Assembly (NCBI GenBank): GCA_024707365.1
Contig: JANPZV010000004.1
Location: 62,001 to 126,000, forward strand
Length of the DNA stretch: 64,000 bases
Source: Terricaulis sp.
Lineage (GTDB): Bacteria; Pseudomonadota; Alphaproteobacteria; Caulobacterales; Aquidulcibacteraceae
Direction: 5' to 3'
Positions 27,773 to 36,481 of the stretch are shown here, in pieces. Under the pieces are notes generated by a model, which saw nothing but the letters and a program-made list of their open reading frames with translations, was not told the DNA's origin and made no database searches. Position 1 is the first letter of the stretch. Each line of letters begins with the position of its first letter. Both the position numbers and the translations under genes were made by a program.

Positions 27773-28345
27773 CTAATCGCCGCGCTTGAAGATGTCGGCC
27801 GCGCGCGCCTGCGCGATGCCGGCAAGGTCGTTTGCGCGCGCGGCGAAGCGCGCATCGCTCGCATAAAGCGCAACCAGCAGCGCGAACGCTGAAAGAGCCA
27901 GCACGCCAACCCCCGCAAGGCGCGAGGCTTGCCCGGCTGTGTGCGGCGGCGCAGGCTTGGCGGGCGGCTCCATCATAGGCGCTGACGCGCGCGGCGGGCT
28001 TAGCAAAGCGCGCCAGGCGTTTTTCGCGGCGCGCCCCTTGGGCAAAGGCTTGACCAGCGCCCCGAGCGGCGCAGGCGGCGTCGCCGCGTCGGTGCGCAGG
28101 CAGGTCAGCCGCTTGGCCGCCGCCGCCTTTTTACCCGCCCAGCGCAAGTCCGGCCGTCGCGCCGCATCGCGCGACCAAAGCAGCACCACGTTGTCGGCTT
28201 CCGCCAGAAGCTTTTCCCGGTCACGCCCAGCGTCGGGCAGGGTGCTCACGGCATAGCCAAGCTGCGCCAAGGTCCAGGCGATGTCGGCGGCGAGCGCCCG
28301 CGCGCTCGGCGCGTGCGCGAGAATTACGAGAGGCGAAGGTTTCAT
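27773..28345 (-). CDS. TIR-like (degenerate) membrane protein
   Basis: SPLVILAHAPSARALAADIAWTLAQLGYAVS...NVVLLWSRDA resembles the TIR fold pattern; C-terminal TM segment; no clear SxxCxxE motif. Confidence 0.5.
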   Translation of the reverse strand: MKPSPLVILAHAPSARALAADIAWTLAQLGYAVSTLPDAGRDREKLLAEADNVVLLWSRDAARRPDLRWAGKKAAAAKRLTCLRTDAATPPAPLGALVKPLPKGRAAKNAWRALLSPPRASAPMMEPPAKPAPPHTAGQASRLAGVGVLALSAFALLVALYASDARFAARANDLAGIAQARAADIFKRGD

Positions 28346-29616: not shown

Positions 29617-30536
29617 GAGCGCGCCGCGGCAAGCGGCCTCCGCAAGATCCGCCGCAGCGCGGGCGCCGCAAGGCCGCCCCGGCGCAGCACGAGCCGATGT
29701 CGCGCCTGGCGCGCATCAAGCTCAATGGCGGGCTGCGCGAAGAGGATATTCACGTTTCGGGCAAGAGCCTCATCACCGCGCTTGGCGGGCTGGTCCTGTT
29801 TATCGGCATCTCCGTGGCGGGCGCGACGTGGCTTGGCTCATCTTTGTTTGACGTGCGCGAGGCGTTCGCGCGCGCGGCTGACGGCGCGGCGGCGAATGTC
29901 GGCTTTGCGGTAGCCGAAATCGAGATCGAGGGCGTGTCCGGTGCGCGCGAGGATGAAATCCGCGCGCTGATCCAGCCGGAGGGGCGCCGCTCCTTGCTGG
30001 CGCTTGATCCGTCTGATGTGCGCACGCGCGTGCAGAGCCTTGATTGGGTGGCCGATGCGCAGGTGCGCCGGCTTTGGCCTTCCACCATCGCCATCACCGT
30101 CGAGCGCCGCCAAGCGTACGCCCGCTGGGAAGAGGGCGGCGAGATTTCCGTGATCGATTATAATGGCGAGCGCCTGCTCACCGAACGCGCCGCCGATCAC
30201 CCGGAATTGCCGCTGGTGAAGGGCGTAGGCGCTGGCCCCGCCGCTGAGCCGCTGCTGATCGCGTTGGAAAACCTGCCGCAGACGCGCGCGCGCCTGGTTG
30301 AGCTGGTGCGCGTGGGCGATCGGCGTTGGGACGTGCGTTTGCAAAACGGGATGACGATCGCGTTGCCGGAAGATGCGCCGGCGCAAGCGCTCATCCAGCT
30401 TGAGCGCCTGCACAACGCGCATGCGCTGCTTGACCGTCCTTTGACTCAAATCGATCTGCGTGCGCCCGGCCTTGTCGCCGTGCGCGTGCATCCTTCACTT
30501 GCCGGCGGCGCACGCCCGCTATTGGGAGGCGCATAA
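29604..30536 (+). CDS. ftsQ: Cell division protein FtsQ
   Basis: N-terminal TM plus POTRA (VAEIEIEGVSGAREDEIRALIQ) and VERRQAYARWEEGG; position ddl-ftsQ-ftsA. Confidence 0.94.
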   Translation: MAAVRARRGKRPPQDPPQRGRRKAAPAQHEPMSRLARIKLNGGLREEDIHVSGKSLITALGGLVLFIGISVAGATWLGSSLFDVREAFARAADGAAANVGFAVAEIEIEGVSGAREDEIRALIQPEGRRSLLALDPSDVRTRVQSLDWVADAQVRRLWPSTIAITVERRQAYARWEEGGEISVIDYNGERLLTERAADHPELPLVKGVGAGPAAEPLLIALENLPQTRARLVELVRVGDRRWDVRLQNGMTIALPEDAPAQALIQLERLHNAHALLDRPLTQIDLRAPGLVAVRVHPSLAGGARPLLGGA

Positions 30537-31860
30537 TGGGCGTGGCTGTCCTCGATTTTGACGACGACTTTCTGCGCGCCGAAGCGCCCGCGCGCGCGCC
30601 TGCGCCGCTGGTGGCCGCGCTTGATGTCGGCGTGTCCAAAACCGTGTGCCTTGCCGCGCGCCATGATCCTGTTTTGGATTTTCATCCGGGGCGGCCGATG
30701 CGCGTCTCGGGCGTGGGCGTGCAAACCGCGCCGGCTGTCGCCTCCGGCAAAGCCGCTGATTTCGATGGCTGCGCCCGCGCCATCCGTGTGGCGATGGACG
30801 AGGCCGCCTTCATGGCCGGCGCGCCGATCCGCCGCGTCACCGCAACCTATTCAGGCCCCGGCCTCAACGCCGTGATTGTGCATGGCGGCGTGCGCGTGCG
30901 CGGCAAGATCATCGGCCATCGTGAGATTGAAGCGGCCATCGCCGCCGCGCTGCAAACCCAGCCCAAATCCGATCGCACCATCCTGCACGCCGAGCCGCTG
31001 CGCTTTTTCATCGATGACGGCGCGCCGGTGGATGACCCCACCGGCCATTCGGGCCGCACGCTGCAAGTTGAGGTTTGCGCCGTCTCGGCGCCGAGCCAAG
31101 CGATCAGTGCGCTCAAAGCCTGCGTGCGCCAAGCGGGCGCGGAGGTGGATGAGATCGTGCCGGGCCCATCGGCTGCTGGTTTTGCGGCGCTCACCCGCGA
31201 TGAACGCGAAGCGGGCGCGCTCGTGCTCGATATTAGGCGCCGGCGCCATTGGCATGGCGGTGTTTGCCGAAGAGGGGCTCGTGCACGCTGAAACCGTCAG
31301 CGTGGGCGGGGTGCGCTTGACGCGCGATCTCGCCGCCAAGCTGCGCACCAGCTACGCTGCGGCTGAGCGCGTGAAGCTCGCCTTCGGCGCCGTGAATGGG
31401 GCGTACGATCCGCGTGAAGCCATCGCCGCGCCAAGGCTTGGCCCGGATGGCCGCCTCGAAGCCGCCACCACGCTGCGTGGGGTGATCGCCGATACGCTGG
31501 CCGCGCCTCATGGAAATGCTGCTGCTGGCGCGCCAGCAGCTCGCGCGCGCCGGTTTCTCCGGCGGCGATGGCCCGCAACGCGCGGTGCTTGTCGGCGGCG
31601 GCGCGATGATCCCCGGCTTGCGCGAACTCGCGGTCGAAGCGCTAGGCATGCCCGTGCGCATCGGGCGGCCCGATGTTTCCGGCTTTGACCATGGCGAAGC
31701 TGGCCCCGCTTACGCGGCCGCTTCCGGCGCGCTGCGCTGGCGGCTCGACATCCCCGCGCCCGAGGATGACGATGAGGGCCAGCCCACGCTTGGCGATCTC
31801 ATCGGCGCCGTGCGCAACGGCGTCAGCAAAGCCTGGCGCTGGCTGCGGGATAATTTCTGA
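30536..31860 (+). CDS. ftsA: Cell division protein FtsA, frame breaks near 31235 and 31505
   Basis: ALDVGVSKTVCLAAR; LVLDI(GAGAIGMAVF); VLVGGGAMIPGL across three frames. Confidence 0.94.
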
Positions 31861-31863
31861 GCC

Positions 31864-33162
31864 TCATTGCGGCGCGCAGATGAACACGCTCAGGTAATTC
31901 GCCGTGAGCGTGCTTGACTGGCGTGTCGTCACGGCCACGCCTTCGCGCCCCAAGAAGGCGCGCAATGCGCCAACTTGCTCAGCCTCGCCCGCTTCGCCGC
32001 GGATTTCATCCTGGCTGACTCGGTAACCGGGGCGCTGGTTGACCGCTGCGGTGAGCACGCGCAAACGCGCGCTCCGCAGCTGGACGCCCAATTGGCCTGC
32101 GCTTTCACGCTGGCGGCGCTGCTCAGCTTCAAGCAGGCTCACCACGCGCTCGGCCTTCTGGCGCGCGCCTGCCACGCCTTCGCATGTGAACACATCGATA
32201 CGCCAGCCGATGCTGTCGCGCGTCTGCTGAATGACGTTCTGGATCTGCTCGGCGCTTTGTTCGATCGCTTGTTCGGCGGGGGACGGCGCTTGGCGCGCAT
32301 CGCCCGGCGATGCTGCGCCCGGCTGAACTGGCGCGGACGCCTGAAGCCCGGCGATCTCGTTCAAGAAATTCTGCTCGGTAATTTCAAATTGCCGGCGCTG
32401 TTCCTGCAATTGGCGCTGGGAATTCCATAAAAGCCCGCCCACGGCGCCGATGGCGATGAGGCTGACAAGGGCCAGGCCCACCAGGAGCCGTGCGCGGCTT
32501 CGCTGAACGGCAATGAGCTTATCGAGCTGCTTGCGCTGCTCATTGTTGCGCGATGTCTCAGCGGCCTCGCTCGCACTGATGAATTCGCGCTGGCTCGCTG
32601 TCGGCTCCGGCGCGCCAGGTTTCCAGGCTGCGAGCCATGTTTGTGCGGCGTCCAATTCTGCGCCGCGCATCAGCAATGATTCATCGTTGCTGTGTTCTCG
32701 CCAACGCGCGGCCATGTCGCCGAGGCGGGTATGCTCGCGAATCCAATCGATGTCGGTGCGCAGCGCGGTGGTGAGTTGCTTGAGCCCCGCGCCGAAGCTG
32801 CGGCCGCGTGTAAAATAAATGTAGTTCAGCCGCCGCAGCGCCTCGGGCGTTTGCGCCTCGTCAGTCTCGACAGACACGACAGGGAGTACGCGCTTGGCCA
32901 ATTCTTTCGCGCGGGCCAATTCCCACGCGCACCGCTCGGAGGCCACAGAGGCGGGGGTGATGACGTAGGCGATCGTGTCAGCTTGCTGCAGCAAGTGATT
33001 GAGCCGCGCCTGCCAATCCTCGCCCGGCACAATATCGTGCTGATCAAGAAACGGATCAAAGCCGGCCGCTTCGAGGCCAGCCATCAATTCCTCGGCGAAA
33101 GCGCTGGCGTCGCTTCGCGCGTAGGAAATGAAAATCCGCAGCGATTGGTGCGCCCCCGCCAT
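31864..33162 (-). CDS. TIR-domain protein with TM segment and C-terminal periplasmic (LytR_C/SPOR-like?) domain
   Basis: RIFISYARSDASAFAEELMAGLEAAGFDPFLD...YVITPASVASERCAWELARA (TIR, SxxCxxE); TM LLVGLALVSLIAIGAVGGLLW; then coiled coil and conserved-looking C-terminal domain. Confidence 0.85.
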   Translation of the reverse strand: MAGAHQSLRIFISYARSDASAFAEELMAGLEAAGFDPFLDQHDIVPGEDWQARLNHLLQQADTIAYVITPASVASERCAWELARAKELAKRVLPVVSVETDEAQTPEALRRLNYIYFTRGRSFGAGLKQLTTALRTDIDWIREHTRLGDMAARWREHSNDESLLMRGAELDAAQTWLAAWKPGAPEPTASQREFISASEAAETSRNNEQRKQLDKLIAVQRSRARLLVGLALVSLIAIGAVGGLLWNSQRQLQEQRRQFEITEQNFLNEIAGLQASAPVQPGAASPGDARQAPSPAEQAIEQSAEQIQNVIQQTRDSIGWRIDVFTCEGVAGARQKAERVVSLLEAEQRRQRESAGQLGVQLRSARLRVLTAAVNQRPGYRVSQDEIRGEAGEAEQVGALRAFLGREGVAVTTRQSSTLTANYLSVFICAPQ

Positions 33163-33219: not shown

Positions 33220-34821
33220 CTATTGCCCGCCTTCGCCCGCGCCGCGCGGGATGGCTTGGTAATCGAGCACGAAGCGCTCAAGCAGGCGCACGGCGTAGGC
33301 GTTGGAGCCGTCCGGATTCCAATCGCTCGCGCCGCTCCATGCTGTGCCGGCAATGTCGATATGCGCCCAAGGCACCTCGCGGCTGATGAACTCGCCCACG
33401 AAATGCGCGCCGGTGCCCGCGCCGGGGCTGCCGCCGCTGTTTTTGATGTCGGCATAGGTGGAAGAAACTTCGCGGCCGTAGCTTGAGTGCAGCGGCAGGC
33501 GCCATAGCGGTTCGCCGGTGGCGCGCCCGGCGGCCTCCAATTGCGTCGCCAGCGCATCGTGGCGCGTGAACAGGCCCGCATATTCGTCCGCCAGCGCGCC
33601 AACCACCGCGCCCGTCAGCGTCGCCACATCGACCACGACGGACGGATTGAGCCGCGCGTCCGCGTAAGCCAGCGCATCGGCCAGCACGAGGCGGCCCTCG
33701 GCGTCAGTATTGGCGACCTCGATGGTTTTGCCGTTCATTGCCGTGAGCACATCGCCTGGGCGCATGGCCGCGCCGTCAGGCATGTTTTCGGCCAGCGCCG
33801 CGATCGCCACCACATGCACCGGCGCGCGTGAGCGCGAAAGCGCCAGCACCGCGCCCGTCACCGAAGCCGCGCCGGACATATCCCTGCGCATATTGCTCAT
33901 GCCGCCGCCGGTTTTGATGTTGAGGCCGCCGCTATCGAAGGTGATGCCTTTGCCGGCCAGCACGATCGGCCCGCCTTCGGGCGCGCCAGGGCCGCGATAG
34001 GTGATGATCATCATGCGCGGCGGCCGCTCGCTGCCTTGGCCAACCCCAAGGATCGCGCCCATGCCGAGCCGCTGCATCGCCGGAACGTCCAGCACCTGGA
34101 TGCTCACGCCGGCGACGCCCTGAAATTGCCGCCGCGCGCTTTCCACAAAGCTTTCAGGATAGATCACATTGGCCGGCGCGTTGGAGACATCGCGCGTCCA
34201 GGCCATGGCGTCGATCAGCGCGCGGCCGCGGCTTGTATAAAGCGCAGCAGCCTCCGCGCCTGTGTCACTGACGATCAGGGTGGGGCCAAGCGGCGCAGCG
34301 TTGCGCCGCGAGGATTGGAAAAGATCAGCGCGATATTCGCCAATGCCCATGCCGGCGGCCCATTCGGCCGCGGCGTCAGCGGGAAGGCCGCCGGCCAGAA
34401 CGGTGATGCGGCTTTCGCTGAGCAGCGACCGCCCGGCGACAGCGCCCGCCATTTGATAATCGAGCGCGCTGGGGGTTGCGCTAAGGCCCACGATCAAAAT
34501 CCGATCCCACGCGCCGATGCCGCGCAGTGAGAGCGTGGCGCGCGCGCCGTATTTGAAATCCGCTGAGGTCAGCGCCCGGGTGATCGCGGCGCGTTCATCA
34601 TCGCTCAGGCTCGCGCCACGGGCCTCGAGATCCTCCACCGCGCCCATCGGCAGCACCAAAGCGCCGCCGGCTTCCCCGGCGGCCGCTGCAAAGCTGATTG
34701 CGCGCTGCTGCTGCGCGGCGGGCTGGGTGATGACGGCGCGGGTCTGCGCCTCGGCGGGTGCGGCGAGCGTGGTCAAAGCAATGGCGGCCAGCGCTGTGCT
34801 GGCGAGAAGGCGCGTGAGCAT
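33220..34821 (-). CDS. Secreted M17-family leucyl aminopeptidase
   Basis: Signal peptide MLTRLLASTALAAIALTTLAAPAEA; LAGKGITFDSGGLNIKTGGGM, NTDAEGRLVLADAL. Confidence 0.93.
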   Translation of the reverse strand: MLTRLLASTALAAIALTTLAAPAEAQTRAVITQPAAQQQRAISFAAAAGEAGGALVLPMGAVEDLEARGASLSDDERAAITRALTSADFKYGARATLSLRGIGAWDRILIVGLSATPSALDYQMAGAVAGRSLLSESRITVLAGGLPADAAAEWAAGMGIGEYRADLFQSSRRNAAPLGPTLIVSDTGAEAAALYTSRGRALIDAMAWTRDVSNAPANVIYPESFVESARRQFQGVAGVSIQVLDVPAMQRLGMGAILGVGQGSERPPRMMIITYRGPGAPEGGPIVLAGKGITFDSGGLNIKTGGGMSNMRRDMSGAASVTGAVLALSRSRAPVHVVAIAALAENMPDGAAMRPGDVLTAMNGKTIEVANTDAEGRLVLADALAYADARLNPSVVVDVATLTGAVVGALADEYAGLFTRHDALATQLEAAGRATGEPLWRLPLHSSYGREVSSTYADIKNSGGSPGAGTGAHFVGEFISREVPWAHIDIAGTAWSGASDWNPDGSNAYAVRLLERFVLDYQAIPRGAGEGGQ

Positions 34822-35122: not shown

Positions 35123-36481
35123 ATGAGCCATTTTAGCGCGCCGGGCGTGCAGGAATCCAAACCCCGCATCGTCGTGTTCGGCGTTGGCGGCGCGCCGGCG
35201 GCAACGCGGTGAACAACATGATCGACGCCGGCTTGCAGGGCGTTGAGTTTGTCGTCGCCAACACCGACGCCCAAGCGCTCACCCGCGCCAAGACGCCCAA
35301 CCGGCTCCAGCTTGGCCATTCCATCACCGAAGGCCTCGGCGCCGGCGCGCGCCCGGAGGTCGGCCAGGCCGCCGCGCAGGAAAGCACGCCTGAGATCATC
35401 GAGTTTCTTGAGGGCGCGCACATGGTGTTCGTCGCCGCCGGCATGGGCGGGGGCACCGGCACCGGCGCGGCGCCGGTGATTGCGCGCACCGCGCGCGAGC
35501 GCGGCATCCTCACCATCGCCGTCGTCACCAAGCCGTTTCACTTTGAGGGCCAGCGCCGCATGCAGCTGGCCGAGGCGGGCGTGCAGGAGCTGCGCAAGCA
35601 CGTCGATACGCTGATCGTCATTCCGAACCAAAATCTCTTCCGCGTCGCCAATGAGCGCACCACCTTCGCCGAAGCCTTCCAGCTTGCCGATCAGGTGCTT
35701 TACAGCGGCGTGCGCGGCGTCACCGATCTCATGGTGATGCCTGGCCTCATCAATCTCGATTTCGCGGACGTCCGCACCGTGATGGCCGAGATGGGCACCG
35801 CGATGATGGGCACCGGCGAAGGCGAGGGCCACAACCGCGCGCTCGAAGCCGCGCACGGCGCCATGGCTAACCCGCTGCTGGATATCGTCTCGATGCGCGG
35901 CGCCAAGGGCGTTTTGATCAACATCACCGGCGGCTTTGATATGACGCTCTACGAGGTCGATATCGCCGCCAACGAAATCCGCGCCGAGGTGGACGCCAAC
36001 GCCAACATCATCCTTGGCTCGACCTTTGACGAGAGCTTGGAAGGGCGCATGCGCGTTTCCGTGGTGGCCACCGGCATCGATGATGAAGCCATTGTCGGCC
36101 AGCAAACCATGGTCGAGCCCGCGCGCCGCGCGGCCGAGGCGCCGCTGCGCCGCCCGGCTGCAAACACCGCGCGCCCCGCGCAAGAGCCCGCGCCGCGCCC
36201 AGAGCCGGCGCCTTCGTTTGAAGAGCAGCGCCCGCGCTTTGCCAATGACGTGGAGCCCGAGCGCCGCAAGGGCGGCGGCTTTAATATGTTCGGCTGGAAA
36301 AAGCCCGAGCCGCGTGAGCGTGAACGCGACCGCGATGAGGGCGCCCGCGCCGCGCATCGAGGATTTCGGCGTTGAAGATGATCTCAACAAGCCCGCGCCG
36401 CGCGCGGCTGAGCCCGATCCTTCGCTCGACGAAGAGCTGGAAATTCCCGCTTTTCTGCGCAGGCAGATCAATCCGCGCTAA
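35123..36481 (+). CDS. ftsZ: Cell division protein FtsZ, frame breaks near 35190 and 36345
   Basis: [11 protein letters not shown](A)[22 protein letters not shown] tubulin signature, C-terminal [17 protein letters not shown]. Confidence 0.97.

Follow-up and report, generated by a model that had tools for sequence, protein, structure and literature searches.

The reverse-strand gene at 31864-33162 of the window (the whole 64,000-nucleotide stretch of Terricaulis sp. DNA analysed here) encodes a member of a modular family in which a TIR domain, a linker and a single transmembrane (TM) helix form a common core and the C-terminal part is exchanged from one gene to another. In the window protein, the C-terminal part is an unnamed domain with two invariant cysteines that probably lies outside the cytoplasm. 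The features discussed below are as follows.

31864-33162, reverse strand: gene for the TIR-linker-TM-coiled coil-C-domain protein, 432 amino acids, ATG start; a full-length homologue in genome G662 is 42% identical
32773-33138, reverse strand: TIR_2 domain (residues 9-130); Pfam TIR_2 at 5.2e-26, AlphaFold pLDDT mostly 90+, Foldseek matches to TIR domains
32920-32922, reverse strand: E81 of SERCAWE, the putative catalytic glutamate; conserved as Glu in 17 of 18 aligned family members
32548-32757, reverse strand: conserved post-TIR linker (residues 136-205; DIDWIREHTRL..RW...LLLRG..L..A..W); invariant residues in 18 sequences, pLDDT about 90-97
32428-32487, reverse strand: single TM helix (residues ~226-245); Kyte-Doolittle maximum, K/R excess on the N side
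32341-32424, reverse strand: post-TM helix or coiled coil (residues ~247-274), within the AlphaFold helix 189-274
31867-32220, reverse strand: C-terminal domain (residues ~315-432) with invariant C327 and C429; both Cys invariant in four homologues
33220-34821, reverse strand: secreted Peptidase_M17 of the leucyl aminopeptidase type; Pfam E=4e-114, signal-peptide-like N terminus

The TIR-linker-TM core and its exchangeable tails

The open reading frame comprises 432 codons without interruption, and from N to C terminus it encodes a TIR_2 domain carrying the glutamate of an SxxCxxE motif, a linker of about 65 residues, one TM helix, a coiled coil and the C-terminal domain. A homologue with the identical layout is present in G662, which belongs to another family of the same order; sequence alignment gives 42% identity over the length (E=1e-115), and the two proteins are collinear to the last residues. 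Because the C terminus of the window protein coincides with the end of its homologues, the frame is free of a frameshift. Probable errors do occur nearby in the same contig. The ftsA gene shows apparent frameshifts near 31234 and 31495 (its reading frame runs over 30536-31291 and then continues in two other frames to 31860), and ftsZ shows one near 35206. As both genes are essential, these are probably indel errors of the assembly. Other split reading frames in the window, for example 25506-26042/25909-26370, suggest further indels. Such errors could in principle have fused unrelated pieces into the domain order described here, but a collinear full-length homologue in an independent genome of another family, ending at the same point, makes this explanation hardly credible, and we rejected an assembly chimera for this gene. 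The original prediction had described an intact reverse-strand gene with a TIR domain containing SERCAWE, one TM helix, a coiled coil and a distinct C-terminal domain, and all of these features are borne out by the analyses given here.

The protein belongs to TIR_2, as its score lies above the curated cut-off across the whole domain (E=5.2e-26, residues 10-130, 92 bits against a cut-off of 28, profile positions 1-121 of 122). TIR families are the only Pfam families that exceed their cut-off in this protein, with no STING, APAZ or SAVED domain. E81 occupies the SxxCxxE or W..E position and is presumably the counterpart of the glutamate established for TIR enzymes that cleave NAD+. AlphaFold modelled the TIR domain and the linker with pLDDT values mostly above 90, and the best Foldseek matches of the TIR model were SPARTA TIR-APAZ, MyD88 and SARM1, with AbTir and plant and Toll-like receptor (TLR) TIR domains lower down. 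By sequence profile, the best matches in the PDB were the TIR domains of TLRs, including the non-enzymatic TLR1/2/6/15. These retain the glutamate in the same motif, yet they are not known to be NADases; since they are among the closest PDB sequences, the glutamate alone does not show that the window protein is one.

The linker is conserved as strongly as the TIR domain itself across Alphaproteobacteria and has no match in Pfam. Residues D137-H144, R146, W154, R166, A173 and W176 are invariant across the 18 aligned sequences. We considered a relationship to the segment that precedes the TM helix in nSTAND1 proteins and found no support for it: the linker profile matched none of 16 reading frames from 10 nSTAND1 loci, and a single-sequence match reached just 14 bits. 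After the linker comes the only hydrophobic segment, with a 19-residue Kyte-Doolittle mean of 2.49, the maximum of the protein, flanked by five K/R residues on the N side versus three on the C side. AlphaFold predicts one continuous helix over residues 189-274, which runs through the TM segment and beyond it. The window protein thus has the order that defines the family, a TIR domain, then the DIDWIREHTRL...LLLRG...W linker, then one TM helix.

A full-protein search (E<=1e-10) found TIR and linker homologues in 16 of 61 relatives (about 26%); around G662, 14 of the 61 genomes have them. Some of these matches cover the TIR domain alone. Aligned over TIR domain, linker and TM helix, family members are about 34-62% identical to the window protein. 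Their tails differ. Pfam recognised WD40 repeats in four of them (L120, L127, L126 and L029), TPR repeats in L122 and a bacterial SH3 domain (SH3_3) in L013; the tail of L027 has a weak trypsin-like match, and those of L121, L124 and L025 contain no named domain. These proteins share with the window protein the same TIR_2 domain, the same DIDWIREHTRL linker and a similar length to the TM helix, whereas the window tail is the two-cysteine domain and not WD40, TPR or SH3. Read by eye, the gene neighbours of the family are scattered (purE/K, purH, rplK, recF/gyrB, lepA and unrelated genes) and do not form defence islands. The genome of the window also contains a second, distant TIR-like stretch (L002; G000:C1:27215-27571, reverse strand), located towards the end of an open frame of 641 codons.

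The two-cysteine domain and membrane topology

At least four copies of the C-terminal domain were found in the family, order, class and phylum samples: those of the window, G061, G068 and G662. The G662 copy is part of a complete TIR-linker-TM-C-domain protein. The other two occur in proteins that lack a TIR domain; the G061 protein is a 406-residue reading frame with an N-terminal TM helix, and the G068 protein carries a signal peptide. The alignment of the four copies has 21 invariant columns, among which are C327 and C429 in window numbering. A wider hunt through 385 genomes of the class, 398 of the order and 299 of the phylum contributed one of these four copies, from the order; in these large searches the best 11-15 candidates per genome were scored, and the copy count is therefore a lower bound. 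We also looked for mobile spread of the domain, and no copies were found in plasmids (tblastn) or viral contigs. The domain has no match in Pfam or, by sequence, in the PDB. Its single-sequence model suggests a beta-alpha-beta...alpha-beta order at a pLDDT of 54.5, and this low-confidence model gave nothing below E=0.1 in Foldseek.

The domain probably lies outside the cytoplasm, in the periplasm, because it follows a signal peptide in G068 and an N-terminal TM helix in G061 and because its cysteine pair is invariant, which fits the predicted topology. The original prediction of a periplasmic domain is thus supported at the level of architecture. It is also probable that C327 and C429 form a disulfide. 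To call the domain a sensor is a guess from this topology. For the family as a whole, a tail outside the cytoplasm is not proved, because the WD40 and TPR tails of other members are of kinds that are usually cytoplasmic.

The ftsA-ftsZ interval and the peptidase neighbours

Between the ftsA stop codon at 31860 and the ftsZ ATG at about 35123 there are two genes, the TIR gene and the Peptidase_M17 gene, and the TIR gene lies on the strand opposite to ftsA and ftsZ. The original prediction placed the TIR gene correctly between ftsA and ftsZ; it did not mention the secreted peptidase that shares the interval. In addition, it called ftsA and ftsZ normally near neighbours, which does not hold for the genus of the window: the two genes are 256-679 bp apart in seven genomes and 1.3-7.3 kb apart in 10, so that 10 of the 17 linked cases have an interval longer than 1.3 kb, and in seven more genomes ftsA is not found within about 10 kb of ftsZ. 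What fills the interval, as read by eye, varies by genome; examples are actin-like proteins, a serpin-like protein, a transporter, and a glucosidase together with a glycosyltransferase. Where the two genes are linked in other genera of the family, they are mostly about 200-400 bp apart; an exception is genus g6, which has murB inside the gap. In 60 relatives (L049-L108) we surveyed the region preceding ftsZ, over about 10 kb at most and less where the contig was shorter, and neither a TIR nor an M17 gene was found in any of these regions. The original prediction had itself named sporadic occurrence at this locus as counting against it, and by that criterion its locus part is refuted.

The ftsA-ftsZ interval is therefore a site of variable cargo in one genus, filled in this case by the TIR/M17 pair. 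It follows that the position of the TIR gene is incidental and implies no role in division; its place beside division genes is a genome-specific accident. The physical position in the dcw cluster is all that would favour a protein that acts together with FtsA and FtsZ in cell division. The opposite strand, the missing TIR gene in the interval of every relative examined, the empty or unrelated interval elsewhere and the location of the G662 homologue between recF-S9 and gyrB all argue against it. We consider such a role very improbable, and the survey largely refutes it. In this way it removes a tempting wrong lead from the ftsA-ftsZ position to a division function.

The M17 gene lies 57 bp upstream of the TIR gene on the same strand, and it is possible that the two are operon partners. 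In G662, gyrB and recF lie on either side of the TIR homologue, which is immediately downstream of the gene for a secreted S9 peptidase of the prolyl-oligopeptidase type and on the same strand, so that both known full-length copies follow a secreted peptidase. The G068 protein with the two-cysteine domain is part of a same-strand run (L045 6419-11071) in which its neighbours are a weakly trypsin-like protein on one side and a secreted caspase-FGE-sulfatase protein on the other. This might suggest a functional pair in which the C-terminal domain monitors, binds or is cut by the peptidase, or responds to its peptide products, and the TIR domain reacts. We regard this as distinctly unlikely. There are just two full-length cases, with two unrelated peptidases, and the pattern was noticed after the fact. 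Moreover, G666 has recF-S9 with no TIR gene within 1.5 kb, none of the M17 orthologues in eight relatives adjoins a TIR gene, and in G061 the C-domain protein is next to a curlin-repeat protein. In G662 itself, the secreted S9 peptidase and the TIR homologue break up the recF-gyrB neighbourhood (L135 5893-15825).

Possible function and relation to known TIR proteins

The reading that we prefer, and to which we give an even chance, is that the protein is a single-pass inner-membrane TIR effector or receptor that is controlled by its periplasmic domain and acts on NAD+. The N-terminal TIR domain would face the cytoplasm, and the linker and the continuous helix would transmit a signal, or oligomerisation, through the membrane to a disulfide-stabilised periplasmic domain. 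Binding of a ligand to the latter, or its disturbance or cleavage, may change the arrangement of coiled coil and linker; the TIR domains may then cluster and act on NAD+, resulting in its depletion or in a signalling product. The defence or envelope-stress NADase role put forward in the original prediction likewise remains an inference. The TIR_2 domain with its SxxCxxE glutamate and a high-confidence model that resembles the NADases SPARTA TIR-APAZ, SARM1 and AbTir argue for an effector of this type, as do the single TM helix, whose N side is the more positively charged, the homologue of full length from a different family of the order, the occurrence of the C-terminal domain on signal-peptide and anchored proteins with both cysteines invariant in four of four copies, and the fusion of the same core to WD40, TPR or SH3_3 tails. 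Against it stand the TLR TIR domains with the same glutamate among the closest PDB sequences, the poor model of the C-terminal domain and the usually cytoplasmic location of WD40 and TPR tails in relatives.

Alternatively, the protein may, like TLRs, be a membrane-anchored scaffold that lacks NADase activity, in which contacts between TIR domains assemble proteins at the membrane upon an envelope cue. The non-enzymatic TLR domains among the best PDB matches fit this possibility, as do the lack of an adjacent effector such as ThsA and the presence, elsewhere in the same dcw cluster, of a conserved and weakly TIR-like protein without the glutamate. Retention of the glutamate in 17 of 18 family members speaks against it. 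Many bacterial TIR domains assayed so far consume NAD+, and the best structural matches include active NADases. Taken together, we consider a scaffold unlikely.

If the effector reading holds and the TIR domain is wired to a periplasmic domain, its trigger would sit at the envelope; intracellular signals are what most of the characterised TIR defence proteins of bacteria sense. A constant core with exchangeable tails also suggests a family of receptors whose domains can be tested one at a time. We further put forward, tentatively and as a rather less likely idea than the effector itself, that this family and order carry shuffled membrane TIR receptors with a constant TIR-linker-TM part and interchangeable tails, a bacterial counterpart of the TLR layout, in which the two-cysteine domain would be a novel family of periplasmic sensors that sets off NAD+ signalling upon envelope damage or proteolysis. 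The likeness to TLRs and IL-1R consists of the single-pass receptor layout with a cytoplasmic TIR domain and an ectodomain, and of TIR sequence similarity. TLRs have an LRR ectodomain, a TM helix and a C-terminal TIR domain, whereas the window protein is inverted, with its TIR domain at the N terminus, has no LRR or Ig domains and carries an unrelated ectodomain. It is therefore an analogy and not membership.

The TIR domain is similar to that of Thoeris ThsB (PADLOC ThsB, 9.9e-16) and of the type III protein ThcB4, but the score of 77.4 bits against NF058526 is far below the cut-off of 220 bits, and the window protein has a TM helix and a C-terminal domain in addition. No ThsA-type effector is located beside the gene, whose neighbours are M17, ftsA, ftsZ, ftsQ, ddl and a metB-type gene, and partners of the Thoeris, CBASS or SPARTA systems were likewise not seen there. 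TIR-STING, TIR-SAVED and SPARTA TIR-APAZ proteins share the TIR fold and the coupling of a sensor domain to a TIR effector; the window protein lacks STING, SAVED and APAZ, and its putative sensor is predicted to be outside the cytoplasm. In amoebae, TirC is a TM-tethered TIR protein that becomes toxic once the TM segment is removed, and release by a protease was proposed as a possible trigger (PMC13142454). TirC is eukaryotic and horizontally acquired and has no ectodomain of the type described here (PMC13142454); it makes TM tethering plausible as a means of control and is not evidence on the window protein. Prokaryotic TIR groups with diverse architectures have been described (PMC7075850). 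We found no paper on the present architecture in a literature whose subscription part was incompletely covered. What is new here is the pairing of a TIR domain with the unnamed two-cysteine domain, together with the description of the linker.

Another TIR-like protein is encoded in the dcw cluster of the window, between murB and ddl (27776-28345, reverse strand). It has 190 residues, a weak TIR_2 match, a C-terminal TM helix and no catalytic glutamate. Twelve relatives from several genera have homologues in the same interval, and seven of nine tested members match TIR_2 at E<=1 (best 1.3e-6). Comparison of their profile with that of the TIR domain of the TIR-linker-TM family gave a probability of 70% (E 3.9e-5). 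It is a membrane protein with a degenerate, probably inactive TIR-like domain. Unlike that of the TIR gene between ftsA and ftsZ, its position in the dcw cluster is conserved.
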